From: a virus
DNA: 29,255 nt
Reading direction: 5' to 3' (one strand)
IMG/VR virus record: IMGVR_UViG_3300037264_006483
Span: 1 to 29,255 of that record
A model generated the notes under the pieces. The model had not been told where the DNA came from. It did no database searches and saw only the letters and a program-made list of their open reading frames with translations. The position numbers and the translations under genes were made by a program. Shown piece after piece: positions 2,190 to 27,762 of this stretch; position 1 is the stretch's first letter; each line of letters opens with the position of its first letter.

Positions 2190-3410
2190 ATGAACGAGCA
2201 GGAAGCGAAAGCCTGGATGCTGAAGCACCTGAAGGAAGTCTGCGGTCCGATCGTCGCAGACATCGTCGGGGATCTCAACGCGAAGGCAACGAAGAACAGT
2301 CCCATCGATCCGGGGACCGGGACGCAGTCGGATCACGCAGCGAACGCGAAGCTGTCCCAGACCCGCAAGGGACTCGTGTTCGGAGGCATCGTCGCCGCAC
2401 TCGGCAAGGCGAAGATGAACGTCGGTGCCGCGATCGACTACGCGGAGAAGACGTTGAAGATGCCGGACGTGGCGAAGGCGCTGACGGCCGGCGTCGGAGA
2501 AGAGGGAGGCTTCACGATTGGCGTGGAACACTCGGACGAGATCATCGACCTGCTCACGGAGCGTGCGAAGATTCGTCCGACCATCAGCAACATCACCGAC
2601 CTGTCCGCAGGCGTGGCCGAGGTGAGCAGGCTCACGGCATCGGCGACGGTGTCGTGGGGCGGTGAGATCATGAAGATCCCGGCAAGCCAGCAGGGATTCG
2701 GCATGCTCACGTTGCGTGCGCGTCAGGAGAAGACGCTCGTGCCGATCAGCAACACGCTGCTGCGGCGCGGTGGTCCTCGGGTCAGCAACGCGATTCGATT
2801 CGACACGCTGCGTGCGATGGCGCTTGGTGAGGACCAGGTGCTGCTGCGATCGGAAGGCACGGAGCACCGGCCGAAGGGACTCCGGTACTGGGCGGTGGCG
2901 GGCAACATCGTGCCCATGACCGCTACGCCAACGATCGCCACGGTGTTCGGTGACCTGGGCGCGCTCGTGCTCAAGCTCGCCGAGAACAACGTGGGCATGA
3001 CGGCTCCGGTGTGGGTCCTGGCACCGCGCACGGTGGTGGGTCTCATGACGGCGCTGAACGATCACGGCGATCCCGTGTTCCGTTCGGAACTCCTCCTGGG
3101 CAGGCTGTGGGGATTTCCTGTGACGGTCACGAACCACCAGCCCATCACGCTCAACCCGGCGGCCAACAAGAGCGAGATCATGCTGTACGACGGCGACGAG
3201 TTCACGCTGGGGCAGGGGCCGCAGCTGCAGGTCGCGCTGTCGGAAGAGGGTGTCATCGTTGACGACGCTGGAAACATCACGTCGGCGTTCCAGCAGAACA
3301 TGACATTCATGCGCGTCATCAGCGAGATCGATCTCGTGGCACGGCATGCGGAAGCGATCGCGGTTCTGACCGGCGTCACCTGGGCTCCGGGCAACATCGC
3401 GGCGGTCTAG
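2190..3410 (+). CDS. Major capsid protein, HK97 fold
   Basis: This is the shell-forming protein of the head. Residues about 1-92 are helical and charged, as expected for an internal delta/scaffolding domain. The family's recognisable core starts near residue 93 (LTAGVGEEGGFTIGVE) and continues through E-loop and P-domain-like segments (ISNITDLSAGVAEVSRL, VPISNTLLRRG, VWVLAPRTVVGLM, LLGRLWGFPVTVTNH) to the end. The length of 406 residues is normal for the family. No separate scaffold gene is present, so the N-terminal region probably serves as scaffold and is removed by the upstream protease. The ATG at 2190 has a clear ribosome site (acaaggagttcatt). The gene is followed by two small paralogous genes that may bind the capsid. 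Confidence 0.95.
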   Translation: MNEQEAKAWMLKHLKEVCGPIVADIVGDLNAKATKNSPIDPGTGTQSDHAANAKLSQTRKGLVFGGIVAALGKAKMNVGAAIDYAEKTLKMPDVAKALTAGVGEEGGFTIGVEHSDEIIDLLTERAKIRPTISNITDLSAGVAEVSRLTASATVSWGGEIMKIPASQQGFGMLTLRARQEKTLVPISNTLLRRGGPRVSNAIRFDTLRAMALGEDQVLLRSEGTEHRPKGLRYWAVAGNIVPMTATPTIATVFGDLGALVLKLAENNVGMTAPVWVLAPRTVVGLMTALNDHGDPVFRSELLLGRLWGFPVTVTNHQPITLNPAANKSEIMLYDGDEFTLGQGPQLQVALSEEGVIVDDAGNITSAFQQNMTFMRVISEIDLVARHAEAIAVLTGVTWAPGNIAAV

Positions 3411-3446
3411 TCCTCGGCAGCATCCACTCACAACAAGGAGGAGACC

Positions 3447-3953
3447 ATGAGTGAACCCATGCAGCCGGGCACAGCACACGCGAGCCAGGCTGATTCAGGA
3501 AGTCGTCGACGCGGCGTCTACGGACTCGAGCCCCAGGTGATCCTGGCCGACGACGTCGTGCAGGTCGACGCACTGGTCGGAGCGACCATCGATCGAACCG
3601 AACACGGAATGCCGTTGTCGGTGCAGTTCTGTTTCCCGGTTCGGATGCCTCTGCTCTCGGGTGAGCAGGCGACATTCGCAATCGAGGTGCAGGATGCCAA
3701 CACCAGTGATCCGTTGGACCCCACGGTGAATTCTCCGGGATCATTTGCGGACTACGGGGCGCAGCCCGATCCCGTGATCATCCAGGGGAACGACGACGAC
3801 AGCCCGGTGGAGACCACCGTGCGTGTCAACGTCGACATCAGCGGTGCTCGTCGGTTCGTGCGTGCCAATCCCACAGTCACGCTTCCCTCGGGTGTGGACG
3901 CGGCGATTGCGGGAGTCGTGATCGTTGGCGGGACCGAGTTCCTCCCGCTGTAA
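3447..3953 (+). CDS. Putative capsid decoration protein, copy 1
   Basis: This 168-residue protein follows the major capsid gene, the usual place for head decoration or stabilisation proteins. I do not recognise a named family. It has a basic, disordered-looking N-terminus (about 1-25) and then beta-rich sequence with predicted strands around PLSVQFCFPVRMPLLSG and TTVRVNVDISGARRFVR. It is related to the next gene: DISGARRFVRANPTVTL here aligns with DLAGARQFVRCDVRLNL there, followed in both by an acidic/Ala stretch and a hydrophobic end with G-G-T or A-G-T. The ATG at 3447 is preceded by caaggaggagacc, among the strongest ribosome sites in the window, in keeping with a high-copy virion protein. 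The function is inferred from position. Confidence 0.6.
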   Translation: MSEPMQPGTAHASQADSGSRRRGVYGLEPQVILADDVVQVDALVGATIDRTEHGMPLSVQFCFPVRMPLLSGEQATFAIEVQDANTSDPLDPTVNSPGSFADYGAQPDPVIIQGNDDDSPVETTVRVNVDISGARRFVRANPTVTLPSGVDAAIAGVVIVGGTEFLPL

Positions 3954-3964
3954 TCGCAAACGAC

Positions 3965-3985
3965 GGGGACGTCGCGGACGTCCTC
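3965..3985. other. Hairpin between the two putative decoration genes
   Basis: The segment ggacgtc-gcg-gacgtcc (3967-3983) is a perfect 7-bp inverted repeat with a 3-base loop, extendable by a G-T and a G-C pair. It is in the 57-base gap between the paralogous genes. No T-run follows, so it is not a textbook intrinsic terminator. It could be a partial terminator or an RNA processing or stability element that sets the relative expression of the two proteins. It may also be chance in GC-rich DNA. Confidence 0.4.
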
Positions 3986-4010
3986 GTCAACTTCAATTCG
4001 GAGGCAGTCT

Positions 4011-4520
4011 ATGGACACAGCACGAGGAGTCGCACATTCCTCGCAGATCAATGCCGGCGCTCGACTGTTGGGACTCTGCTCTCAGCGTGCGCGGGTCGTG
4101 ATCGCAGGGAGTGGCGCGGCGGAGACCCAGGACAATGCATGGCACCTTGGCAAGGTGATCGATCGCCTTGCACCGGCGTTGTTCCTGTCGGCGCAGAACG
4201 TCATCACCGTGCATCCGACGCTCAACGGCGGTGAGAACGTTACGATCGAACGGCGGTATCGGCACGATGTCGCGGCGGCAGGTGCGTTCACCGATGCACT
4301 GCCGTCGTTGCTGGATGCAGAGATCCCGCTGGTCACCGTACTGGCCGCAGATGTGGCGGCTGGAACGCCGTTCTCGTATCGCGACAATCTGGATCTCGCA
4401 GGCGCACGGCAGTTCGTGCGGTGCGATGTCCGGCTCAACCTGTCGCGGGCGAACACGGACGAGGCACGCATGGCGGCGGTGATGACGCTCGCAGGGACCG
4501 ATTCGGATCCGGTCAGCTAG
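4011..4520 (+). CDS. Putative capsid decoration protein, copy 2
   Basis: This 169-residue protein is a diverged paralogue of the gene just upstream. The shared C-terminal block (DLAGARQFVRCDVRLNL, then TDEARMAAVMTLAGTDS) and similar length support tandem duplication. The middle (LSAQNVITVHPTLNGGENVTI) is beta-rich and aligns with the corresponding part of copy 1. I see no signal peptide, membrane segment or catalytic motif. The ATG at 4011 follows ttcggaggcagtct, a good ribosome site. Position after the capsid gene suggests a head surface or stabilisation protein; a head-fibre or tail-related role is possible. It is also the last structural gene before the methyltransferase/glycosyltransferase cassette, so it is a possible target of modification. 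That link is speculation. Confidence 0.58.
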   Translation: MDTARGVAHSSQINAGARLLGLCSQRARVVIAGSGAAETQDNAWHLGKVIDRLAPALFLSAQNVITVHPTLNGGENVTIERRYRHDVAAAGAFTDALPSLLDAEIPLVTVLAADVAAGTPFSYRDNLDLAGARQFVRCDVRLNLSRANTDEARMAAVMTLAGTDSDPVS

Positions 4521-4527
4521 GTCTGCG

Positions 4528-5103
4528 ATGGAACAGCCTCTCGTACTTGATCGGGCTGCAGCCATCACAGGGTGGATGAGTATGCGCGAGTTGACGTGGC
4601 TTGCCACAACGGCTCGTGCATGCTCGCTCATCGTTGAGATTGGCAGTTACCAGGGACGTTCGACGCGGGCGTTAGGCGACAACTGTCCGGGCACGGTCTA
4701 CGCGATCGACCCGTGGGTGCCGCTTGCCTACATGCCTCCGCAGATAAAGCGACATGGGGATACGTGGCCCCACTTCACAAAGAACCTGCGGGATCTCCTG
4801 CAAATAGTCAAAGTGGTTCCTATAAAACACCGCAGTGTGGATGCGTGGCCGCATCTACTCCGACTGCTCGGTGGCCGCAAAGTCGATTGTGTGTTCATTG
4901 ACGGAGACCATGATGAGCCTGCCGTGCGGCTCGACATTCAACTCGCGTTGCAGGTACTCAAGCACAACGGCATTCTGTCCGGGCACGATTACTCGCACAA
5001 GGACTGGGCCGGTGTGAAGGAGGTGGTGGATGAATTGTATCCAGGAATCAACCACGTGGATTCGATTTGGTGGACACGATGCGCATCATCATTCCCAGTG
5101 TGA
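4528..5103 (+). CDS. Class I SAM-dependent methyltransferase
   Basis: This 191-residue protein has a Rossmann methyltransferase fold. Motif I is VEIGSYQGRST (Glu37-Gly39), the acidic end of strand 2 is at AIDPW (Asp61), and VDCVFIDGDHDE (about 119-130) followed by LKHNGILSGHDY matches the Methyltransf_24-like group, often found beside glycosyltransferases and acting on sugars or small molecules. It lacks a DPPY/NPPY motif, so a DNA methyltransferase is unlikely. The gene follows the decoration gene by seven bases and overlaps the following glycosyltransferase gene. The ATG at 4528 has only a weak ribosome site; ATG 4576 is the alternative, but the conserved-looking N-terminal helix favours the longer form. 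I infer methylation of a glycan made by its neighbours. Confidence 0.82.
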   Translation: MEQPLVLDRAAAITGWMSMRELTWLATTARACSLIVEIGSYQGRSTRALGDNCPGTVYAIDPWVPLAYMPPQIKRHGDTWPHFTKNLRDLLQIVKVVPIKHRSVDAWPHLLRLLGGRKVDCVFIDGDHDEPAVRLDIQLALQVLKHNGILSGHDYSHKDWAGVKEVVDELYPGINHVDSIWWTRCASSFPV

Positions 5104-5741
5104 ACTACGCGGACTTCCTACTGGCCACGCTGCCGTCGTGGAGGCAGGCGTTGCCAGAGGCGCAGGTGACTGTGGTCACGACGCCGGGTGATGTTGCCAC
5201 GATGACCGTGGCAACTCAACACGGTGCGCAGGTGTTGGAGACTCCTGTGTGGTTCAGCCGTATTGACGGACGACCCACGTGCTTCAACAAGTATCGTGCG
5301 TTGGATGAGGCACTGGCGTTTGCGAATCCGGCCGTTGGAGAACCTGTGCTGATGCTGGATGCGGACGTGGTGCCTGTGGGTCCGTGTCCAACTGCAGTTG
5401 AGGCGGATACGCTCGTCGGATGCATTCGGTATCTCGTAACAAATGTCGGAGAACTCTCCGCGTATTTGAAGAGACCGGTGCCTGGAATTCTTCGGCGGTT
5501 GAATCCGCTGCCGAACTCGAGCTATCCGTTGGCGCACGTGCCGCACGGATACTTTCAATTGTTCGCGTATCGATCGGGGATTGGGTTTGGCGACTTCCAC
5601 AACGCCGCGAAGGGTGATTTGCGATTCGGCGATCACTTCAAATCGCTGCACTGGATACCTCCAAAGGAGTTTCACGTTCTCCATCTAGGCGCGTCGAGTC
5701 GGGCCAACTGGAACGGCAGAGTCCTACCGGCATTTACGTAA
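5079..5741 (+). CDS. Glycosyltransferase-like protein (GT-A type)
   Basis: The protein begins MRIIIPSVNYADFLLATLPSW, the first strand and helix of a nucleotide-sugar-binding GT-A fold. LMLDADVVPVGP at about 93-104 provides a DxD-type metal site. Near the C-terminus, FHVLHLGASSRANW contains a histidine of the kind that often completes the metal site. At about 220 residues it is compact. I chose ATG 5079 over the upstream TTG 5067 and GTG 5070 because the fold starts there; it overlaps the methyltransferase gene by 25 bases. The sugar donor and acceptor cannot be told from sequence. The gene is part of a four-gene modification cassette inside the structural block. Confidence 0.72.
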   Translation: MRIIIPSVNYADFLLATLPSWRQALPEAQVTVVTTPGDVATMTVATQHGAQVLETPVWFSRIDGRPTCFNKYRALDEALAFANPAVGEPVLMLDADVVPVGPCPTAVEADTLVGCIRYLVTNVGELSAYLKRPVPGILRRLNPLPNSSYPLAHVPHGYFQLFAYRSGIGFGDFHNAAKGDLRFGDHFKSLHWIPPKEFHVLHLGASSRANWNGRVLPAFT

Positions 5742-5767
5742 TCTCGTTATGGAAAAGGAAAGAGGCA

Positions 5768-6604
5768 ATGACACCAACATACGCACTCGTGATAGGAACG
5801 ATCAACCGGGCACCACGGAAGAACTATCTCGGAGAGACACTGCGGAACCTCGCTCGCGCGGGCGTATGGGATTCTCCGGTGCCGTTCCGAATGGACATCG
5901 TCGACTCCGGGTCAGTCGACGAACGCAACTACATCGACACGCAGGTCTACCCGAACATTCCTCCGGGCTTGTCGAGTCACAAGTTCGCCGTGCACTTCCT
6001 GGACATGGCGACGATGAACATGAAGTCTCCGCAGTTCGCTATTTATCAGACGAGCGAGAAGTTGTCGCTGCGCCGATCACGGAACGCCAACGCGATCGAA
6101 TGCCTGAAGATTGGTCTGGCGACTGGCGCTGAATGGATCCTGTTTGTAGAAGACGACGTGGACGTCTGCGGCGACTTCTTGGGATCCGTGGATCGCTGGC
6201 TGGCCGGACATGCGCGACGCAATCGGCATCTCTACTCGTTCTGCACACCGTACAAACAGATTCGTACGGTGCGTGCACGCGGCGGAACGGCGTGGGAGTT
6301 TCCGTGGAAGGCGTTTTACGGGAACCAGTGCCTCGTGTTCCACAAGCGTGACGCCGCGCTGGCTGCGAAGTTCATCGAGGACCGAATGAACACGTGGGAC
6401 ACTGGCCAAGGCTTCGACTTGCTGCTCAAGCACTGGGCTGCGGCCACATGGCCTGGCATACCCTCGTTGCTGTCCAGTGTGCCGAGCTTCGCCCAGCACA
6501 TCGGCGAGGAGAGTTCGCTGCACTTCGGCCGGTTTCATACTGGTGCAGAGTTCGGCGGACCGGACTACGTGTACCAGGCGCAAGAAGTGCGGGTGAGCGA
6601 ATGA
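5768..6604 (+). CDS. Glycosyltransferase, family 2-like (GT-A)
   Basis: This 278-residue protein opens with YALVIGTINRAPRKNYLGETL, typical of GT2 family N-termini. Residues about 97-125 (LSLRRSRNANAIECLKIGL, then WILFVEDDVDVCGDF) place an EDD metal-binding motif where the DxD of a GT-A enzyme is expected. WEFPWKAFYGNQCLVF and the later DTGQGFDLLLKHW region would form the acceptor side and catalytic acidic residues. A ribosome site (ggaaagagg) precedes ATG 5768. Its TGA overlaps the ATG of the next glycosyltransferase (ATGA at 6601), so the two are translationally coupled. It probably transfers a sugar to a virion protein or cell-surface molecule; the acceptor is not known. Confidence 0.78.
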   Translation: MTPTYALVIGTINRAPRKNYLGETLRNLARAGVWDSPVPFRMDIVDSGSVDERNYIDTQVYPNIPPGLSSHKFAVHFLDMATMNMKSPQFAIYQTSEKLSLRRSRNANAIECLKIGLATGAEWILFVEDDVDVCGDFLGSVDRWLAGHARRNRHLYSFCTPYKQIRTVRARGGTAWEFPWKAFYGNQCLVFHKRDAALAAKFIEDRMNTWDTGQGFDLLLKHWAAATWPGIPSLLSSVPSFAQHIGEESSLHFGRFHTGAEFGGPDYVYQAQEVRVSE

Positions 6605-7887
6605 GCTCGGTCTTGTGGGTGGGCGATGCTGTGTTGCAAACCGGCTTCGCTCGCGTCACGCACAACGTGCTCGACTACTTGCATTCGATCGGTTGGACAG
6701 TGAACTTGATCGGGATCAATTACGACGGGGACCCGAACCACGGGTATCCGTACGCCATCTGGCCCGCAGGCACAGGCGGAGATCAGTTGGGACGGAAACG
6801 TCTCGCCACGTTGAGTCAGCACTTGAAGCCGGATGTGATTTGCATCATCCAGGATCCGTGGGTGGTGGCGGACTATCTTAACAGCGACGTGTCGCCCACA
6901 ATACCGATTGTTGCCTACATGCCGGTGGACGGGAAAAACATTTCGAAGGCTCCGCTGCTGAACGATCTGGCATGCGCTATCTGGTATACGAACTTTGGAA
7001 AGAAGGAAGCCACCATCGGCGGATACGAAGGCAAAAGCGAAGTGATTCCGCACGGTGTTGATCTGGCCGTATACTCTCCCGGTGATCGAGATGAAGCGCG
7101 GCGGAATCTCGGACTTGACGTGGCGTTGGCAACGCAGGGAATCGATTACCAAGATGCGTTCATTGCCATGAATATCAATCGCAATCAACCGCGCAAGCGG
7201 CTGGACTACGCACTGCACGTGTTTGCCAAGTGGTGGAACGCGGAGGGACGGCCGGACAACGCGTTTCTGTATCTGCACTGTGCGGCGGTTGACCTCGGGT
7301 ACGACATCAAGCAGTTGGCGCGCTACTACGGAATCGGGAAGCGTGTGATCCTGTCTCGCGTCAAATACAGTTCACGAGACAGCGTGAGCGAAGCAGACTT
7401 GGCGAACATCTATCGTGCAGGCGATATCGGTTTCAGCACCACGCGCGGAGAGGGATGGGGACTGACCACGATGGAAGGCATGGCATGTGGCCTGGGACAA
7501 ATCCTTCCAGACTGGGCAGCGCTCGGCGAGTGGCCTCGAGACTTCGCATACATGGTTCCAGTGTCGCATGTGCTGACGGAAGTGCGTGTGAACATTATCG
7601 GAGCGATGGCGAGTTCGAAGCACATGGTGGACGCGCTGCACATAGCGTTTACAAGTCCAGAGTGGCGGAGGGAGTACAGTCGAAAAGCGTTGGCGTGCGT
7701 TGCAAACCCGGCGTACCGATGGGAGTCGGTGGCGCAAGAATTTCACCGCGTTCTTACTGAGGTGGTCAATGGCGAACACAAGCAGCGATCGGAAGAACCC
7801 GACACCCTCGTTGACACCCGCATCGAAGCAGCAAGGGCTGCCGGCGAACAAGCAGATGACCGGGACGGCGTCGAAGCATCCTCGTAG
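6601..7887 (+). CDS. Glycosyltransferase group 1 / GT4-type (GT-B fold)
   Basis: This 428-residue enzyme has a GT-B fold. The N-terminal Rossmann domain begins VLWVGDAVLQTGFARVTHNV, and a conserved SEVIPHGVDLAVYSP linker leads into the C-terminal domain. The donor-binding E-x7-E motif is complete: GEGWGLTTMEGMACG with Glu284 and Glu292. The start at ATG 6601 is set by the fold and by the ATGA overlap with the preceding gene; the open frame extends further upstream but that part is antisense-like shadow. The last 45 residues after FHRVLTEV are hydrophilic and not part of the fold; another reading frame is open across them. This is the most confidently assigned enzyme in the cassette. Confidence 0.9.
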   Translation: MSSVLWVGDAVLQTGFARVTHNVLDYLHSIGWTVNLIGINYDGDPNHGYPYAIWPAGTGGDQLGRKRLATLSQHLKPDVICIIQDPWVVADYLNSDVSPTIPIVAYMPVDGKNISKAPLLNDLACAIWYTNFGKKEATIGGYEGKSEVIPHGVDLAVYSPGDRDEARRNLGLDVALATQGIDYQDAFIAMNINRNQPRKRLDYALHVFAKWWNAEGRPDNAFLYLHCAAVDLGYDIKQLARYYGIGKRVILSRVKYSSRDSVSEADLANIYRAGDIGFSTTRGEGWGLTTMEGMACGLGQILPDWAALGEWPRDFAYMVPVSHVLTEVRVNIIGAMASSKHMVDALHIAFTSPEWRREYSRKALACVANPAYRWESVAQEFHRVLTEVVNGEHKQRSEEPDTLVDTRIEAARAAGEQADDRDGVEASS

Positions 7888-7891
7888 GTAG
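7769..7891 (+). CDS. Possible 40-residue overlapping ORF
   Basis: An ATG at 7769 follows gaggtggtca, a good ribosome site at normal spacing, and opens a 40-codon frame ending at 7891, seven bases before the head-tail adaptor gene. The peptide begins MANTSSDRKNPTPSLTPASK, is basic, Pro/Ser/Thr-rich and looks disordered. It overlaps the dispensable-looking hydrophilic tail of the glycosyltransferase in another frame. One of the two frames may be incidental. I recognise no family. Confidence 0.3.
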   Translation: MANTSSDRKNPTPSLTPASKQQGLPANKQMTGTASKHPRR

Positions 7892-7897
7892 GGCATC

Positions 7898-8767
7898 ATG
7901 GCATTGACTGAACTCGTTCCGCCGACGTCAGAAACGCTGGCGTCGCTCGCGCGCGTAAAGCGTGAACTCAGTATCACTACCGAGGATGCCGTTCGAGACG
8001 AGCACATCAGTGAACTGATTTCAGAAGCCAGCGCACTGATCCAGAAATGGATCGGGTATCGGTTGTTGCGCGCGCGGTTGCGCGAGACAGTCGCTGGCGC
8101 AGGGCGATCGGAACTGTTACTCAGCCGCACGCCCATCGCGTTGGTGGAGTCCGTGCTGGTTGAGGACGAACCGGTCACCGCGGATCAGTTCACCGTTGAG
8201 CATGAGATGGGCGTGCTGTTGCACAACGAGGCGTGGCGATCTACTAAGCACAGTGGTGTATGGTTGAACGAATACGAACGGCCGGACGACGGACGGATGG
8301 CTGTGGTTGCAGACTACTGGGCCGGTGTCTTCGGTCCAGACGATAACATTCTGGCGTCCGGCATTTCGGTGGATGGCCCAACCAAGACGTACGCAGTGGT
8401 CGACCCGCCGAACCTCGTGGCTGGTGACGTGGTTGTGGCTGTGGGTTTCGCCGAAGCAGTGAACAACGGCAGTAAGACGGTGGCGTCGCGCACGGCCGCT
8501 ACGATCGTGGTCACGAACGCACTGGTCACAGAAGCATCCGCACCGGAGAACGCGCGCATCCGAGTGCGCACGTTGGATCCGGCGTTAGAACGTTTGTGCG
8601 TGCAATGCGTCAAGGGTTGGATCCTTGGAGCCGACCATGACCCGGCAATGACCTCGGAGAAGATTGGAGACTGGTCCGCGTCGTGGGCGTCCGGAGATGT
8701 GGACCTCGCACACGAGTTGCCACCCGGCGTTTTGAAAACGCTTGAACGCTATCGGAGATACGTGTGA
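7898..8767 (+). CDS. Head-tail adaptor / connector protein with inserted domain
   Basis: The N-terminal part (LARVKRELSITTEDAVRDEH, then SELISEASALIQKWIGY) is the helical start of HK97 gp6 / SPP1 gp15-type connectors, which form the ring under the portal. The C-terminal part (ALERLCVQCVKGWILG to LERYRRYV) is the matching end helix. Between them, residues about 150-226 form a beta-rich insert with the pattern VAGDVVVAVGFAEAVNNGSK, then a V-T-x-A-L-V-T-E stretch, which resembles a small beta domain seen in various phage tail proteins. At 289 residues it is much longer than usual connectors (about 100-190). The ATG at 7898 follows ggtagggcatc. The stop overlaps the GTG of the next gene. The fold assignment is good; the insert's role is unknown. 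Confidence 0.78.
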   Translation: MALTELVPPTSETLASLARVKRELSITTEDAVRDEHISELISEASALIQKWIGYRLLRARLRETVAGAGRSELLLSRTPIALVESVLVEDEPVTADQFTVEHEMGVLLHNEAWRSTKHSGVWLNEYERPDDGRMAVVADYWAGVFGPDDNILASGISVDGPTKTYAVVDPPNLVAGDVVVAVGFAEAVNNGSKTVASRTAATIVVTNALVTEASAPENARIRVRTLDPALERLCVQCVKGWILGADHDPAMTSEKIGDWSASWASGDVDLAHELPPGVLKTLERYRRYV

Positions 8768-9105
8768 GCATTTTGCATTTGCTGAACGCAGTCGGCGGCG
8801 GATCGCTCCAACGCAATCGTCCGGAGCGTGTGAACGGTCATTGGTCCGTTAACTTCGTCGTCGTTTCTTCGTTTCCCGTGCGTCGCCCGTTCGCACCCAG
8901 TGGCGCTGAGATGATGCTGGCCGAGCGAATGGAAACGAAAGTCACGCACATCACGTACTCTGAGCCGTCTCGAGACGTGCGTCGTGGAGATCGAATTACG
9001 ATCGAAGCCGTTGAGTACGGAGTGACTGCGGTACTGCCTCCGTCGAAGCCACACCACTTGAAGATAATGCTTGAGCGCAGGGAACATGGCGAGCTCCAGC
9101 CCTAA
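8764..9105 (+). CDS. Head closure / head-tail joining protein
   Basis: This is a 113-residue protein whose GTG start (8764) overlaps the previous TGA as GTGA; cggaga lies upstream as a ribosome site. The C-terminal half, with RRGDRITIEAVEYGVTAVL near residues 75-94, is the typical beta-barrel end of SPP1 gp16 / phage head-tail joining proteins, in which a short IxxxG-x-x-Y/V-x-V strand closes the barrel. Position between the connector and the HK97 gp10-like gene agrees with that role: sealing the filled head and providing the tail attachment surface. The N-terminal 30 residues show no clear motif. Sequence similarity is weak by nature in this family, so gene order carries much of the argument. 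Confidence 0.62.
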   Translation: MSILHLLNAVGGGSLQRNRPERVNGHWSVNFVVVSSFPVRRPFAPSGAEMMLAERMETKVTHITYSEPSRDVRRGDRITIEAVEYGVTAVLPPSKPHHLKIMLERREHGELQP

Positions 9106-9514
9106 GAAAGGAAAGTGGCGAAATAAGGAAGTGGTGAAGGCCACTCGAGACGAAGTGGAAGTTCGCGTTCTGCGTGCATCTATTATCGTTCGAGACGAAA
9201 TCAAGAGATTGTTAAACGTGTCGAATCCCGGAGGCAGGACCCCGAGTGCCGAAGGTGAGTCCCCGAGAAAGGTTAGTGGAGACCTACAGCGGTCGATTGT
9301 GGAGGAAGTGACCTCAGATGCAATTGGAGTGATCGGTCGAGTAGGTACGAATCGACCACAAGGACGTCGACTCGAGTTTGGATTTCGAGGAACCGATTCT
9401 GCTGGCCGTTCATTCTCGCAGGAACCACGACCGTATCTACGTCCGGGACTAGCGAATAAAAGATCGGAAGTTCGTGCAATTCTTGGAGTTCTCGGAATAG
9501 GGAGGACGAGGTGA
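9086..9514 (+). CDS. HK97 gp10-like morphogenesis protein
   Basis: ATG 9086 is the likely start (ribosome site gcaggga); it overlaps the previous gene by 20 bases. TTG 9071 is an inferior alternative. The 142-residue protein has a basic N-terminus, a helical VRVLRASIIVRDEIKRLL segment, SPRKVSGDLQRSI with the family's conserved S/T-G-x-L-x-x-S-I pattern, and a C-terminal QEPRPYLRPGLANKRSEV, the usual P-RPFLRPALE-like end of HK97 gp10 family tail/head-tail proteins. These proteins act in completing the head-tail interface. The assignment rests on both motifs and on position between head closure and tail completion genes. Confidence 0.78.
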   Translation: MASSSPKKGKWRNKEVVKATRDEVEVRVLRASIIVRDEIKRLLNVSNPGGRTPSAEGESPRKVSGDLQRSIVEEVTSDAIGVIGRVGTNRPQGRRLEFGFRGTDSAGRSFSQEPRPYLRPGLANKRSEVRAILGVLGIGRTR

Positions 9515-9933
9515 CTGAGATTGACAACGCACTTGACGAGCGCATGATGAGCGATAGCGACCTGACAAATCTGTTGGGCACGTTTCGCGGAATGCCGAAC
9601 GTGTTCCTGATGTCGGAATTGCCGGACGGAGTTGCTCCGCCCTACATCGCTGTGCCCGCGTCGCCGTCAAGCGCAGCGCACGATACAAAAACTTCAGTTG
9701 GCCGCGTGCACATCCGCGACATCGGATGCTACACTGCGGCAAACGGAAGCCCAGCTGGCGTGGATGCGATCGCCAACCGGGTGTGGGAGTTGTTCCACCG
9801 ACATCCACTGGTTGTGGCAGGGTGGGACAACATCATCGTCGACGTTCAAGGTCCGGTCGTCGCACCTACGGATCACACGTTGTACGGGCGGATCGTTACC
9901 GTCAGTATGACGCTCTGGAAGTCAGCCACTTAA
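9511..9933 (+). CDS. Tail completion / terminator protein (gp17-like, DUF3168-type)
   Basis: The GTG start at 9511 overlaps the previous stop as GTGA, with ggaggacgag as ribosome site. The 140-residue protein has an N-terminal helical region (SDLTNLLGTFRGMPNVFLM), the strand PPYIAVPASPSS, then RVHIRDIGCYTAANGSPAGV and IANRVWELFHRHPLVVAG, ending in GRIVTVSMTLWK. This matches the pattern of small tail completion proteins that cap the head-proximal end of the tail tube and set its attachment to the head. Gene order, directly before the tail tube gene, fits. Sequence similarity within the family is low, so this is a position-supported call. Confidence 0.7.
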   Translation: MTEIDNALDERMMSDSDLTNLLGTFRGMPNVFLMSELPDGVAPPYIAVPASPSSAAHDTKTSVGRVHIRDIGCYTAANGSPAGVDAIANRVWELFHRHPLVVAGWDNIIVDVQGPVVAPTDHTLYGRIVTVSMTLWKSAT

Positions 9934-9948
9934 CGAAGGAGAAGCACT

Positions 9949-10365
9949 ATGCCTCACGCACCCGACTACGGATCCGGTCAGGGAGTTCCCGTCAACGGGA
10001 CTCTCGTGATCTTGCTGATTGACGGAGTGGTCGTCGGTCATCAGCGCGGAATGACAGTTGGCGAAAGCAACGCCAGCATTGACTACTCGTCGAAGGAGAA
10101 GCGGCATCGACGGGTCGGCTACGGTCGCTACGAATCCACGCTGTCAGTGGAGTCACTCTACGTGCCGAACGCGTCTGGCTACCTCGCGATCCAGAATGCG
10201 TCTCGCGACGGCACCATGGTGGAACTCATCCGCCGGGAACTCGGAGCCGATTTCGAAACTGCGCACGCGGTGATCACCAGCGTGTCAGGCGATTTCCCGG
10301 ACCAGGGCGAAGCGGTGATCGCGGTTGACTTTGACATCGACGATGTCTGGGCAGCCGTTCCGTAA
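9949..10365 (+). CDS. Major tail tube protein
   Basis: This 138-residue protein follows the tail completion gene and precedes the tail chaperone, the fixed position of the tube protein in siphoviruses. Its sequence fits the TP901-1-like major tail family: NGTLVILLIDGVVVGHQRGM at the start, a Ser/Lys/Arg-rich loop (SSKEKRHRRVGYGRYESTLS), LIRRELGADFETAHAVITSV and the final DFPDQGEAVIAVDFDIDDVW. The protein should assemble into stacked hexameric rings around the tape measure. A strong ribosome site (cgaaggagaagcact) precedes ATG 9949, as expected for a highly expressed virion protein. The length is at the short end of the family; no Ig-like domain is appended. Confidence 0.78.
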   Translation: MPHAPDYGSGQGVPVNGTLVILLIDGVVVGHQRGMTVGESNASIDYSSKEKRHRRVGYGRYESTLSVESLYVPNASGYLAIQNASRDGTMVELIRRELGADFETAHAVITSVSGDFPDQGEAVIAVDFDIDDVWAAVP

Positions 10366-15001: not shown

Positions 15002-16054
15002 ATGTCTTTGTTATTCATTGACAGTCACGACCATTACGACTTCCAAGGCTACAAGCAGAAGTATACGACCGGGCTACTGGCCGGTGTAGAGTTGAGCAAG
15101 GGCCGTCACGGCACATACGGCACTTCCCCGTGGGGTGCGCTCATTGCTCCGTGGAATCCCGGTCCTGGACATGCGAGGGTGTTGATCGGTTCGGCCATCG
15201 GAGTGAACTTTGGGCCGGACGGGTTCTACGGGATCGGGGATATCGGTACGAACCTCTGCGGACTCGGGATGCAGGTGGACGGTCGTTTGCGGTTCAATAC
15301 GCCGGGTGGAACGTATTACGATTCCGATCCCGATATTCTCAAGTCTAATCTCGGTCGATGGTATTTCATCGAGTTGGACGTGACGATAGATATTTCTAGT
15401 GCGGTGCCGCCGATGGAATATCGAACCTTGGCCGTTAAGGTTTACGTAGATGGAACAAAGGTCATTGATCAAGCAGGCCCAAGCCCGTGGTCACCAACGC
15501 ATCTTGAATTCCCTTCGGCGTTTGGATGGTCGTTTGTCACACGGGGTGGCGTAGGGTCTGGGCAAAACGCCGATGACTTCTATCTTTGTGATGGAGCCGG
15601 TGGTGCACCGTTTAACAATCTGCTTGGTGACGTACAAACCGGCGCGATTTTTCCAAACGGAGTTGGGTTCATCAATCAGTTCACGCCATCGGCTGGAGCC
15701 AATTGGGAGAACGTGAATGAAGAGGCGGGTTCTGTGGCTCCTGATGATGATACGACATACAACGCATCGCCAACCAACGGACACACGGATCTATTCACGA
15801 TGATGGACGTGGATACGGACGATACGTTGATGGCAATCCAGATGCTCATTAGTTCGCGTCGAACCCAGGAAGGGTTCGCATCGTTGACGCCGATGTTACG
15901 ACAGGCCGGGGTGAATTACGACGGGTTGAACCGGCAGTGTTCTCCGGCGTATCTGTATCGGCATCGAGATGTGCGTGTGTTAGCACCGGACGGATCGGCG
16001 TGGACCGATGCGATCCTCAACGCGATTCAAGCCGGATACCGGCGTGGAGTATAA
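15002..16054 (+). CDS. Tail lectin-like protein, paralogue 1 (concanavalin-like fold)
   Basis: This 350-residue protein has the pattern of phage tail proteins with a LamG/concanavalin A-like sandwich: RWYFIELDVTI near residue 120, LAVKVYVDGTKVID near 140-155 and NADDFYLCDGAGG near 195. A C-terminal appendage follows (about 215-350) ending in the motif RQAGVNYDGLNRQ and a D-G-S-A-W-T-D-A-I-L-N close. The next gene has the same architecture (ELKANIHDSTG, LLDGATELT, DDWYVCDTSG, SAGTDYDGT and an A-W-L-V-S-G-I-N end), so the two are tandem paralogues. Such proteins typically bind surface glycans of the host or decorate the tail tip. ATG 15002 follows aggagaaacc. A role in receptor binding is likely but not shown. 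Confidence 0.65.
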   Translation: MSLLFIDSHDHYDFQGYKQKYTTGLLAGVELSKGRHGTYGTSPWGALIAPWNPGPGHARVLIGSAIGVNFGPDGFYGIGDIGTNLCGLGMQVDGRLRFNTPGGTYYDSDPDILKSNLGRWYFIELDVTIDISSAVPPMEYRTLAVKVYVDGTKVIDQAGPSPWSPTHLEFPSAFGWSFVTRGGVGSGQNADDFYLCDGAGGAPFNNLLGDVQTGAIFPNGVGFINQFTPSAGANWENVNEEAGSVAPDDDTTYNASPTNGHTDLFTMMDVDTDDTLMAIQMLISSRRTQEGFASLTPMLRQAGVNYDGLNRQCSPAYLYRHRDVRVLAPDGSAWTDAILNAIQAGYRRGV

Positions 16055-16057
16055 GCC

Positions 16058-17086
16058 ATGATGCGATGGACCGAAGGTTTCGAGTCGTCGTCTCAAAACT
16101 CTGATATTCTTTCAGCGTATGAGGCGGGGAGTTTTTCAATTCAATCCAGCACTGTCCGAACCGGAGCCAGGTCTGGACAAGGAGGACCGGGAGCGTGGGC
16201 ACTTACAAAGTGGTTGACTTTTTCAGGAGATCCCATTTGGGGTATTGCTGCCTTTGTAGTTTCTTCTTTTGGTTACGTTCGGGGTGTCTGTTGTATCATC
16301 GATACGGATCACGCAACAGAACATCTCACCGTTACGATCAACACGAGTGGATTCCTTGAAGTTCGGCGTGGCGGAGTAGCGGGAACAATCCTAGCTACCG
16401 GGACAACTCCGCTTACTGCAAATACGTGGTACTACATCGAGCTCAAGGCCAACATCCATGACTCCACTGGATCGTATACGCTGCTGCTTGACGGAGCAAC
16501 AGAGCTTACGGCTAGCGGGGTGGATACACGGAACAGTGGGAACGGAGTAGCTGGTGGGATTAAGGAAGGTTTTGGATCTGGAGCCGATTACTGGTTGGAC
16601 GATTGGTATGTCTGCGACACGAGCGGAAGTCTGAACAACGACTTCCTTGGTGGAGTAAAGATTGAATGCGTATTACCGCAGACGGATGCCGTAGCGGCGG
16701 GAAGCAATGCCGGTCTAACGCCGTCAACCGGAACGGATCACGGCGCGCTGGTGGATGAAACGGATGCCAACGGAGACACTGATCACAACTTCAGTTCGAC
16801 TGTTGGGGCGAAGGACACGTATAACTTTCCGGCATTGGCGTTAACAGGCGCTGTGAAGTGCACGCACCTTCGCTTGTTCTGCCGGAAGACGGATACCGGT
16901 GATCGTCAATTGACGCCGGTGACTCGTTCGGCAGGAACCGACTACGACGGCACTCCGCAGGTGCTCACGTCTGTTCACGGCTATACCGTTCGTGAGATTC
17001 GAGAAACCGATCCGGCAACCGGAGTAGCATGGCTTGTATCTGGAATCAATTCTGCAGAGTTTGGCGCAAAGATCGCAGGCGCGTAA
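16058..17086 (+). CDS. Tail lectin-like protein, paralogue 2 (concanavalin-like fold)
   Basis: This 342-residue protein starts with MMRWTEGFESSSQ, resembling many phage tail lectin-like proteins that open with a G-F-E motif. The sandwich core includes TVTINTSGFLEVRRG, NTWYYIELKANIHDSTGSYT and LLLDGATELTASGVDT, then YWLDDWYVCDTSGSLNNDFL. The C-terminal appendage carries SAGTDYDGTPQVL and ends with a D-P-A-T-G-V-A-W segment. This end closely parallels the preceding gene. The start may be ATG 16058 or 16061; the ribosome site is weak and the gene sits three bases after the previous stop, so coupling is likely. Two paralogues with different binding faces could widen the range of surface sugars recognised. 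That idea is an inference. Confidence 0.65.
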   Translation: MMRWTEGFESSSQNSDILSAYEAGSFSIQSSTVRTGARSGQGGPGAWALTKWLTFSGDPIWGIAAFVVSSFGYVRGVCCIIDTDHATEHLTVTINTSGFLEVRRGGVAGTILATGTTPLTANTWYYIELKANIHDSTGSYTLLLDGATELTASGVDTRNSGNGVAGGIKEGFGSGADYWLDDWYVCDTSGSLNNDFLGGVKIECVLPQTDAVAAGSNAGLTPSTGTDHGALVDETDANGDTDHNFSSTVGAKDTYNFPALALTGAVKCTHLRLFCRKTDTGDRQLTPVTRSAGTDYDGTPQVLTSVHGYTVREIRETDPATGVAWLVSGINSAEFGAKIAGA

Positions 17087-26312: not shown

Positions 26313-27049
26313 GGGATGCGCGCCTCCAAGTGGCCCCACGTCGGGGCGAAGTCTGTTGCGAGTCTCGCCAGCCCAACGGAACTGCGGCTGCGATTTTCCT
26401 TCAGTCCGATACCGCCTTCGTCCATTCGGTGTTTCGTAAACGGTGCGTCGAGCGTTGCGCGGAAGTCGACGAAGCCTTTACTGATCAACCACATTGTGAA
26501 GTAACGGTCTGCATAGCAGGGCAGATCAAGCGGATAGCGGAACGCTTTAAGCATTTGGTGTGACACGCACCGAAGGATCCAACCTATCTTCCGATACACA
26601 CGGAGGTCTTGGTTCGTGACCATCGTGCGTGCAATTAGGAATCGGTCAAAGAACTCTGCCGTGGAATGCGCGCCAGCCATATGCACCGGCGTGCCCCACT
26701 CCGCTGTCGCGCGCACCAAGTTCGTGAACGAGGTTCGGGGGAACCGGCAGTTGTCGTCGGACATCACGTAGTAATCGTAGCCGTGTCTCACCGCCGCGCG
26801 TCGCAGAACCTCCAAGGCTTTTCCAACGCACGCATCTGGATTGTCGTAGTCAACCAGCCGCACTTTCGGAAGGGCGTCGAGCACGGGACGATACGCGTGG
26901 AGCTCTGCCGAATCAATCGCCAGGTAGGTGCCTGTGCGGTTCCACGTTGCGTGCATTGTCTTCAACGCCTTGAACATGATGTCGGCGCGTCCCCTGGACG
27001 GAATGAGATGCGCCACCGTGACGTCGCCGTTGTGCGTGGATACTTTCAT
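26246..27049 (-). CDS. Glycosyltransferase-like protein (GT-A fold) in the replication operon
   Basis: The start at ATG 27049 overlaps the upstream SDR stop as ATGA; the open frame extends further but that part is shadow of the SDR gene. The 267-residue protein opens with VAHLIPSRGRADIMFKALKT, typical of nucleotide-sugar transferases, and has YYVMSDDNCRF near residues 92-102 as the metal-binding DxD-like site. Later segments (SHQMLKAFRYPLDLPCYADR, then a region with TKHRMDEGGIG) could provide catalytic residues. Because it is co-directional and coupled with DNA polymerase and a nucleotide-modification-like gene, DNA or nucleotide glycosylation is a possible role. A surface glycan role is the alternative. 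Both are inferences. Confidence 0.68.
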   Translation of the reverse strand: MKVSTHNGDVTVAHLIPSRGRADIMFKALKTMHATWNRTGTYLAIDSAELHAYRPVLDALPKVRLVDYDNPDACVGKALEVLRRAAVRHGYDYYVMSDDNCRFPRTSFTNLVRATAEWGTPVHMAGAHSTAEFFDRFLIARTMVTNQDLRVYRKIGWILRCVSHQMLKAFRYPLDLPCYADRYFTMWLISKGFVDFRATLDAPFTKHRMDEGGIGLKENRSRSSVGLARLATDFAPTWGHLEARIPWEEIIKLNTPSKGKRFVLKQS

Positions 27050-27762
27050 CCAACTATATCCATGCACGCGCCGCTCATATACGACGTGGCGTTGTACGAG
27101 AGTTGAACGATGAACTCTGCGACCGCCTTCACGGGAAACTCCAAGCCTGTGACACTGCCCGCTTTGAAGTAGTCGCTGGCCTGTTCCGGTGTCCACCCAC
27201 GCATCTTACATACCTGCGCGTCGATGTAGCGGCTCATGCCGGTGTCGGCCATCTTGCCCGGCCGCACACCGATAAACGAAACTCCGCGCGGCTTAGTCAA
27301 CTCGCGTGCCATCTGCTTCGTGGCCATGTCCATCGCTGCTTTGGAAATGTTGTAGGCGAGGGAGTGTCGCATCGGCCGCCACGCCGCGTCGGAGATCACG
27401 TTGATCACCGTGCCCTTGGACCAGGACAAGGACTCCAGTAGAGCCTTCGTCAGCATGATCGGGCCCACGCAGTTGACCGCCATCACTTCATGCAGGAACG
27501 TATCGCTCAGGTTCACGAACTCTCGAACCGCGTTCATGCCGGCATTGTTGATCAACAGATCGATGTGTCCGCCGAACTCGAGTTTCGCAGCGACAGCGAA
27601 CCGCGCTATCGATTCTGGGTCCAGCAGATCCATGTGCCTCTGATTGCTACGCACATGATCGGGCTGATGCGTCGTTCCCAATACAAGGTGAGAATCAAAC
27701 TCGTACCTGCGCCTCAACTCCTGGCCCAGTCCACTGCTGGTGCCTGTTATCACGATGTTCAT
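27046..27762 (-). CDS. Short-chain dehydrogenase/reductase (SDR)
   Basis: This is a complete classical SDR of 238 residues that would oxidise or reduce an alcohol/carbonyl with NAD(P). The cofactor motif TGTSSGLG (6-13), the NNAG motif (72-75), Asn97 and the catalytic triad Ser124 (INVISDAAW), Tyr137 and Lys141 (YNISK) are all present, followed by VRPGKMADTGM. Nothing is truncated, so selection appears to keep it active. ATG 27762 overlaps the previous stop by ATGA. SDRs are uncommon in phages; here it stands between an Nmad1-like gene and a glycosyltransferase, so it may make or alter a sugar or base modification. The substrate cannot be told from the sequence. Confidence 0.9.
   Translation of the reverse strand: MNIVITGTSSGLGQELRRRYEFDSHLVLGTTHQPDHVRSNQRHMDLLDPESIARFAVAAKLEFGGHIDLLINNAGMNAVREFVNLSDTFLHEVMAVNCVGPIMLTKALLESLSWSKGTVINVISDAAWRPMRHSLAYNISKAAMDMATKQMARELTKPRGVSFIGVRPGKMADTGMSRYIDAQVCKMRGWTPEQASDYFKAGSVTGLEFPVKAVAEFIVQLSYNATSYMSGACMDIVG

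Follow-up and report, generated by a model that had tools for sequence, protein, structure and literature searches.

Gene content and layout of the cassette

The window is the whole 29,255-nt stretch of viral DNA analysed here, which gave no match when compared with phages by megablast. Positions 4528–7887 hold a cassette of four genes, all intact open reading frames on the plus strand. These encode a SAM-dependent methyltransferase of the Methyltransf_24 type (MT; 4528–5103, 191 aa), a putative GT-A-like glycosyltransferase (GTa; 5079–5741, 220 aa), a glycosyltransferase with a GT-A fold (GTb; 5768–6604, 278 aa), and a GT4-type retaining glycosyltransferase of the GT-B class (GT4; 6601–7887, 428 aa). 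The ATG of GTa at 5079 sits inside MT, with an overlap of 25 nt, and GTb and GT4 overlap by 4 nt (ATGA) from 6601. No hydrophobic or membrane segments were found in the four proteins.

The cassette is embedded in a block of virion genes that are likewise on the plus strand. The upstream flank encodes a Mu-F protein, a protease, an HK97-type major capsid protein (2190–3410; PF05065, E 1.1e-29) and two small putative decoration proteins, at 3447–3953 (phrog_5707, E 2.7e-5) and, directly upstream of the cassette, 4011–4520 (phrog_5707, E 0.012). The two decoration genes are paralogues, with cross-matches between the two in contig L002, where the second has a 51% homologue. Downstream, a 10-nt gap separates GT4 from the head-tail adaptor (7898–8767; phrog_442, E 7.4e-18), which is followed by a neck or tail completion protein (9071–9514; phrog_5, E 1.1e-10), the major tail protein (9949–10365; phrog_1407, E 1.3e-4; 71% in sister contigs) and the tape measure protein. 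The co-directional genes, both overlaps and the position between putative decoration genes and head-tail adaptor all agree with a preliminary description of this DNA. GC content across the cassette is 0.57–0.58, a slight dip from 0.61–0.64 upstream. No promoter-like sites were found in positions 3300–9200; chance alone predicts more, and the scan is uninformative.

Assignment of the four products

GT4 matches phrog_2170 over its full length (residues 5–389, E 8e-33) and Pfam models of the GT1 group below their cut-offs. The glutamates of its EX7E catalytic motif, E284 and E292, are invariant in alignment A4, and the pattern occurs in 73 of 85 GT4 loci. The best solved match to the GT4 profile is chlorella virus B736L (3oy2, E 1.7e-28). 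The closest cellular relatives are Verrucomicrobiota chromosomal genes that lie outside phage modules and next to another conserved gene, and the family is therefore not specific to virions. We considered whether these matches are prophages and rejected the idea, as they sit among syntenic chromosomal genes, none of which matches the virion genes; they therefore name no host. Scanning viral contigs with the single GT4 or GTb protein gave no match.

GTb matched no Pfam family at E 0.1 and has a 52% homologue in sister contigs. Its EDD motif (E128, D129, D130) is invariant in the aligned homologues. An AlphaFold model built from a 10-sequence alignment (pLDDT 80.5) has a GT-A fold, which bears out the earlier GT-A-like reading of this product; a poor model from 3 sequences (pLDDT 53) was left out. 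The best VIA-align match is to GnT-I (1foa; Z 18.4, 233 residues, rmsd 3.5), and comparison with 5ggf gives Z 17.1, a GnT-I/POMGnT1-like fold. Membership of GT13 was considered and GTb is not filed there: the GT-A fold is present, but the sequence profile does not place it in that family.

MT scores 59.2 bits against the Pfam profile PF13578 (E 8.5e-16; curated cut-off 26.3) and is probably, by sequence similarity, a sugar O-methyltransferase. The best solved match to its three-sequence profile is 6g7d (E 1.1e-10), labelled by the tool only as a methyltransferase domain protein and which we take to be MeT1. The best solved matches overall are O-methyltransferases, with no DNA methyltransferase among them, and the PHROG family name of MT, "DNA methyltransferase", was therefore dropped. 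MT homologues are present in the GTb- and GT4-bearing contigs L012 and L015, and related methyltransferases at this site in other phages match RMNT_CmcI. The putative GT-A-like assignment of GTa is the weakest of the four. It has a DxD motif (LDADV), matches PF13641 below the cut-off (E 0.035) and shows no profile similarity to GTb. A 42% homologue lies between TerL and portal genes in contig L125, adjoining a Methyltransf_24-type gene.

The cassette occupies a recurring slot

The preliminary description held that virion modules are usually uninterrupted. This is too strong, since a break at the same place recurs in many phages. We confirmed 310 GT4 relatives in viral contigs and examined 80 loci. 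A neck, connector or major tail gene lies at most three genes downstream of GT4 in 69 of these 80 further phage loci, compared with a mean of 36.5 and a maximum of 47 over 1000 draws of random genes. Tail genes were downstream of GT4 in 61 loci and upstream in none, while head genes were upstream in 40 and downstream in 2. Judged by gene order, the placement of the cassette is not that of random cargo.

Directly upstream of GT4 is a variable slot of 0–10 kb with exchangeable contents, including methyltransferases, glycosyltransferases, sugar aminotransferases, acyltransferases and radical-SAM enzymes. Among 125 slot genes, Pfam identified Methyltransf_24 (11), DegT (9), GT2 (6), hexapeptide (4) and rhamnosyl O-methyltransferase (3) members. 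In the closest relatives of the window (major capsid protein 72%), GTb and GT4 stay in this slot, but the methyltransferase and the genes at the GTa position are different ones. The smallest form is a lone GT4 between head closure and neck genes, found in L064 and in L072, L074, L075 and L083, which carry an identical GT4 and count as one case. GT4 overlaps both the head-closure and neck reading frames in L064 and the neck reading frame in L072; GT2, MT24 and GTb had no matches elsewhere in the contigs of L064, L072 and L075. Domain fusions also occur, GTb-GT4 in L016 and MT-GT4 in L011.

Unrelated named isolates show similar arrangements. The gene order is MCP-GT4-MT-GT2-neck in phiPsal1, MCP-x-GT4-three genes-adaptor in the Microcystis phage Mae-JY09, and portal-x-GT4-GalT-MT in the Synechococcus phage S-CBS4. 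There are two exceptions: in TJE1, GT4 precedes the terminase genes instead of separating head from tail genes, and in S-EIVl it does not adjoin annotated virion genes.

GT4 co-diverges with virion genes

GT4 distances track those of virion genes (major tail protein, r 0.69; Ad1, 0.56; window-type adaptor, 0.88) and do not track DegT (r 0.03) or the accessory glycosyltransferase c11 (r 0.03). Across the relatives, glycosyltransferase genes are thus tied to virion genes both by position and by GT4 co-divergence. The preliminary description had taken movement of the cassette independently of the structural genes, together with action on the host envelope, as a sign against a virion role. The accessory genes are indeed exchanged freely, but GT4 is anchored and co-diverges. 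Comparison with a sister phage gives pN/pS of about 0.4, which indicates purifying selection.

The major capsid protein, putative decoration protein 1 and major tail protein are candidate acceptors. A partial Mantel correlation (r 0.65, 18 loci) hinted that GT4 follows the major tail protein more closely than the neck or connector. Rank correlations on larger sets did not uphold this hint (major tail protein 0.54, connector 0.53, Ad1 0.55), and we therefore leave the acceptor unnamed. No clear example of a strongly Ser/Thr-rich tail, which would point to an evident acceptor, was found in the capsid, decoration, neck and major tail proteins of the window.

A proposed role in virion glycosylation

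As read from the genes alone, the cassette would be a late-expressed, cytoplasmic part of the virion operon that glycosylates a virion protein, a reading to which we assign a probability of roughly 0.6. We infer late expression from the operon position, and likewise infer glycan synthesis, a virion-protein acceptor, the order of action and the sugars used. GT4 would most probably start the glycan, by transferring a sugar to a capsid, decoration, neck or major tail protein at an exposed position. The chain would then be lengthened by GTb and GTa from nucleotide-sugar donors, and MT would cap or modify one sugar by O-methylation. The short, possibly methylated virion glycan of the preliminary description is supported in part and is the reading that fits best: the gene families, the recurrence of the slot in unrelated phages, the head-closure and neck overlaps of the smallest forms, the fusions and GT4/virion co-divergence all fit, as does the lack of membrane segments and GtrA flippases, while the acceptor is a candidate only. 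The chromosomal setting of cellular GT4s, the lack of a confirmed capsid role for B736L and the lack of a clear Ser/Thr-rich tail count against this reading, as do the GT4 positions in TJE1 and S-EIVl.

In one alternative the target is the host envelope (LPS or capsule). Changing it late in infection could block superinfection or free progeny from debris that bears receptors, and the cassette would occupy the virion operon only for its late expression. The DegT aminotransferases, hexapeptide acyltransferases and O-methyltransferases of the slot do resemble O-antigen loci, and the Verrucomicrobiota GT4 genes are chromosomal. We nevertheless consider this reading unlikely, as a GtrA-type flippase (PF04138) exceeded the cut-off in 0 of 29 records, the four proteins have no membrane segments and GT4 co-diverges with virion genes. 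Classic lysogenic conversion does not fit either: 0 of 25 viral contigs carried a tyrosine integrase (PF00589), and phiPsal1, which bears the cassette, has been described as lytic (PMC6106888).

The glycosyltransferases might instead modify hydroxymethylated pyrimidines of phage DNA, with MT acting on DNA or a DNA-linked sugar. The PHROG name of the MT family points this way. So do some long GT4-bearing contigs (7 of 29 records), which encode a protein of the thymidylate synthase family, to which dNMP hydroxymethylases belong. All seven are among the 25 metagenomic contigs, however, with none in the four named isolates (S-CBS4, TJE1, phiPsal1 and Mae-JY09) or the window fragment; where present, the gene is roughly 20–38 kb from GT4. 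This and the O-methyltransferase matches of MT speak against DNA glycosylation, which we consider less likely still. Least probable is passing cargo, a moron island that the late genes tolerate but that has no tie to the virion: accessory genes are exchanged without co-diverging with GT4 and the cassette GC is slightly lower, but GT4 holds its position in divergent phages, stands alone and overlaps its neighbours in the smallest cases, takes part in fusions, and purifying selection is seen.

Within the virion-glycan reading, GT4 would be fixed between head-closure or adaptor and neck genes while relatives swap the genes upstream of it, and each phage would therefore wear a different coat. By analogy with bacterial O-antigen loci, many uncultivated tailed phages could, we suggest tentatively, carry a coat-serotype locus at a fixed place between head closure and neck. 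A conserved GT4 there would prime a virion protein for glycosylation, and an interchangeable upstream set of sugar-nucleotide, glycosyltransferase, methyltransferase and acyltransferase genes would decide the glycan. The genes suggest exchangeable sugar coats on phage particles. Phage virions are usually regarded as bare protein, with glycosylation shown in few. Here one glycosyltransferase occupies the same position in the virion operons of dozens of phages at least, next to an exchangeable set of glycan genes; if the reading is true, glycosylation of virions would be widespread and as variable as surface antigens are. For phages of free-living bacteria, possible benefits include adsorption, protection from environmental proteases or grazers, and avoidance of host surface traps. 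The concrete genes and candidate isolates (Mae-JY09 and S-CBS4) allow one to ask what the glycan does for the phage.

Comparison with known systems

The Gtr serotype-conversion modules of temperate phages likewise carry glycosyltransferases that change surface glycans. Gtr modules need a membrane flippase and a lipid-linked donor. Neither PF04138 above cut-off in the 29 records nor a hydrophobic segment in the four proteins was found here. The mycobacterial methylmannose polysaccharide cluster (MeT1, pMeT3 and ManT) similarly is small and combines sugar O-methyltransferases with a glycosyltransferase, but is bacterial, makes a polysaccharide rather than a protein-linked glycan, and includes a hydrolase (PMC9883506).

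Capsid glycosylation in chloroviruses (PBCV-1 Vp54) shares virus-encoded soluble glycosyltransferases, B736L being the closest solved structure to the GT4 family, and the PBCV-1 glycan is methylated. Chloroviruses differ in being eukaryotic viruses with N-glycans. B736L/A546L has no proven part in capsid glycosylation, and NY-2A capsid glycans lack mannose, yet B736L bound GDP-mannose best (PMC9614988).

Closer in kind are phiPsal1, Mae-JY09 and S-CBS4, which have the same GT4 family in or beside the head module, accompanied in phiPsal1 and S-CBS4 by MT and GT-A-type genes as in the window. Their virion genes have no sequence match to those of the window save a weak tape-measure match, and their records annotate these genes only as glycosyltransferase or methyltransferase.

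Virion glycosylation in cluster F1 and other mycobacteriophages was reportedly described by Freeman et al. in 2023 (cited by PMC12619734, PMC11256854), with phage-encoded glycosyltransferases as the presumed source of glycans on capsid and tail-tube proteins. The likeness proposed in the preliminary description holds for function, namely phage-encoded glycosyltransferases with virion proteins as supposed targets. It does not extend to gene position: Maravista, a relative of mycobacteriophage Che8, carries its putative glycosyltransferase genes close to the genome's 3' end (PMC11256854), outside the virion operon. The present cassette lies within the head-to-tail block and includes a methyltransferase; its relatives add sugar-biosynthesis genes. 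On the proposed reading, the cassette would be a new variant within already known phage virion glycosylation.

Gene content and organization of the head-tail region

The 29,255-base virus record is a fragment in which the head and tail genes lie on the plus strand. A Mu-F-like head protein, a protease, an HK97 major capsid protein and two paralogous small proteins (phrog_5707; putative decoration proteins) are followed by four enzyme genes, the head-tail adaptor, neck, major tail protein and tape measure, with more putative tail genes and a lysin located 3' of the tape measure. Primase and DNA polymerase are on the minus strand, and close to the polymerase is a FabG-like short-chain dehydrogenase/reductase (27046-27762, minus strand; phrog_3142, E 4e-35). 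The neighbouring paralogues at 15002-16054 and 16058-17086 belong to phrog_2448, a family of unknown function, and are probably tail proteins. The four enzymes were found as open reading frames exactly where the preliminary description had placed them, on the plus strand: a Methyltransf_24 methyltransferase (MT, 4528-5103), a GT-A-like protein (GTa, 5079-5741), a GT-A glycosyltransferase (GTb, 5768-6604) and a GT4-type enzyme (GT4, 6601-7887). MT and GTa overlap by 25 nt, GTb and GT4 by 4 nt, and only 10 nt separate the end of GT4 from the start of the adaptor.

Assignment of the four enzymes

MT scores above the Pfam cut-off for Methyltransf_24, and a profile of MT with two phage homologues picks out 6g7d, along with SAM-dependent O-methyltransferases, from the solved structures. 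The family phrog_2675 carries the label 'DNA methyltransferase' but matches a Methyltransf_24 protein with a profile that leads to O-methyltransferases; the label, which also occurs in cyanophage records, is possibly a misnaming. GTa is the least certain assignment of the four, with a sub-threshold GT2-type Pfam match and a DxD-like LDADV motif. A 42% homologue in contig L125 lies between TerL and portal, with a Methyltransf_24-type gene and a weak match to radical SAM as neighbours.

GTb matches no Pfam family. A model built from ten homologues (pLDDT 80.5) has a predicted GT-A fold, nearest to GnT-I and POMGnT1 by structure comparison (Z 17-18), and the EDD triplet is invariant. GT4 is spanned over nearly its full length by a phrog_2170 match and carries an EX7E motif. 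Its top solved profile match (1.7e-28) is B736L (3oy2), a chlorella virus GT-B enzyme that bound GDP-mannose best among the nucleotides tried and whose acceptor is unproven (PMC9614988).

A variable glycan island precedes the neck genes

An alignment of GT4 sequences, scanned against viral contigs, yielded 310 confirmed relatives, 80 of which were retained for counting; all ORFs of these loci, picked greedily and some on the wrong strand, were grouped by single linkage, and certain loci are near-duplicates of each other. In 69/80 loci, at least one of the three genes that follow GT4 is a neck, connector or major-tail gene, against a mean of 36.5 and a maximum of 47 in 1000 draws of random genes from the same loci. 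Across the 80 loci, tape-measure or chaperone genes are downstream of GT4 in 61 and upstream in none, and head genes precede GT4 in 40 and follow it in 2, with many contigs ending early on the upstream side. The interval from the last head gene to GT4 measures between -3 and 9,808 bp, depending on the locus. Pfam matches among 125 genes in this slot comprise Methyltransf_24 (11), DegT sugar aminotransferases (9), GT2 (6), CAP59-type (6), hexapeptide acyltransferases (4), rhamnosyl O-methyltransferase (3), radical SAM (3) and nucleotidyltransferases. This range of lengths and mix of families make the slot a variable glycan island rather than a fixed four-gene cassette. Radical-SAM genes in the slot (L091 3495-4907 and L026 946-1752, one with a B12-binding domain) suggest unusual sugar or peptide chemistry. 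A phage contig with MT, GTb and GT4 homologues, L012, also encodes a GT10-type fucosyltransferase (8889-9797; PF00852, E 6.2e-15).

Sister phages L002 and L003, whose capsid protein is 72% identical to that of the window, retain GTb (52%) and GT4 (46%) between decoration genes and adaptor. They replace MT and GTa with a Methyltransf_11-class methyltransferase, a gene with phosphoribosyltransferase/HAD-like motifs and a second GTb. The L002 copy of the phosphoribosyltransferase/HAD-like gene (6625-7443) reads by motif as a fusion, has no Pfam match, and has a cluster member in L044. GTb and GT4 are under purifying selection similar to that on the adaptor (pN/pS about 0.4). Named phages carry members of this GT4 family: phiPsal1 has the order MCP-GT4-MT-GT2-neck, Mae-JY09 MCP-x-GT4-three genes-adaptor, and S-CBS4 portal-x-GT4-galactosyltransferase-MT. 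In TJE1 an epimerase and a methyltransferase precede GT4, all upstream of the terminase genes, and the S-EIVl GT4 adjoins no annotated virion genes.

GT4 relatives on Verrucomicrobiota chromosomes lie outside phage modules. In loci L098-L111 and L113-L116, mostly from such chromosomes, two genes form a syntenic pair: a conserved ORF of ~540 aa and, after it, a GT4 sharing 40-46% identity with the phage enzyme; L102 (Arenicella MAG) lacks the pair. Among cellular records, the phage arrangement is clear only in L117 (Sulfuricaulis MAG) and L112 (Acidobacteria MAG). Further relatives, of phage or host origin, occur on short contigs binned as candidate division TM6 SOIL31 (L118, L120), where they adjoin a conserved ~200-aa gene also present in L102.

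GT4 is the constant element of the slot

The only gene separating head closure from neck is GT4 in L064, where it overlaps both neighbouring genes, and in L072/L074/L075/L083, whose identical GT4 sequences count as one case; in L072 it begins 34 bp past head closure and runs into the neck ORF. GT2, MT24 and GTb matches are absent elsewhere in the L064, L072 and L075 contigs, records that may be incomplete. GT4 distances track those of virion genes, with correlations of 0.69 for the major tail protein, 0.56 for Ad1, 0.44 for the connector, 0.36 for the neck and 0.88 (n = 8) for the window-type adaptor; for the slot genes DegT (0.03, n = 11) and accessory glycosyltransferase c11 (0.03, n = 13) no correlation is seen. 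A search for the acceptor by co-divergence with GT4 singled out no protein. Fused proteins of the types GTb-GT4 (L016) and methyltransferase-GT4 (L011) tie these three enzymes to one pathway. We infer that GT4 would prime a glycan that the exchangeable genes elaborate.

Possible targets of the pathway

A soluble late enzyme could act on cytoplasmic precursors of the host envelope. Modification of the envelope is nevertheless disfavoured, as the four proteins contain no membrane segments, no GtrA flippase was found, tyrosine integrases were not found in the viral contigs, and phiPsal1 is lytic by its published description (PMC6106888). Glycosylation of phage DNA is disfavoured: a thymidylate-synthase-family hydroxymethylase is absent from all four named isolates tested. 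Seven metagenomic contigs do encode one, by coordinates roughly 20-38 kb from GT4, and in these DNA glycosylation may still occur.

The arrangement is real and widespread, and it is probably functional. In literature that took in a minority of subscription journals, we found no published description of a variable slot for glycan genes where head and tail modules meet. We regard the arrangement as a probable new form of phage virion glycosylation, its acceptor and chemistry being putative. A known precedent is in mycobacteriophages, for which virion glycosylation is established (Freeman et al. 2023, via PMC12619734, PMC11256854).
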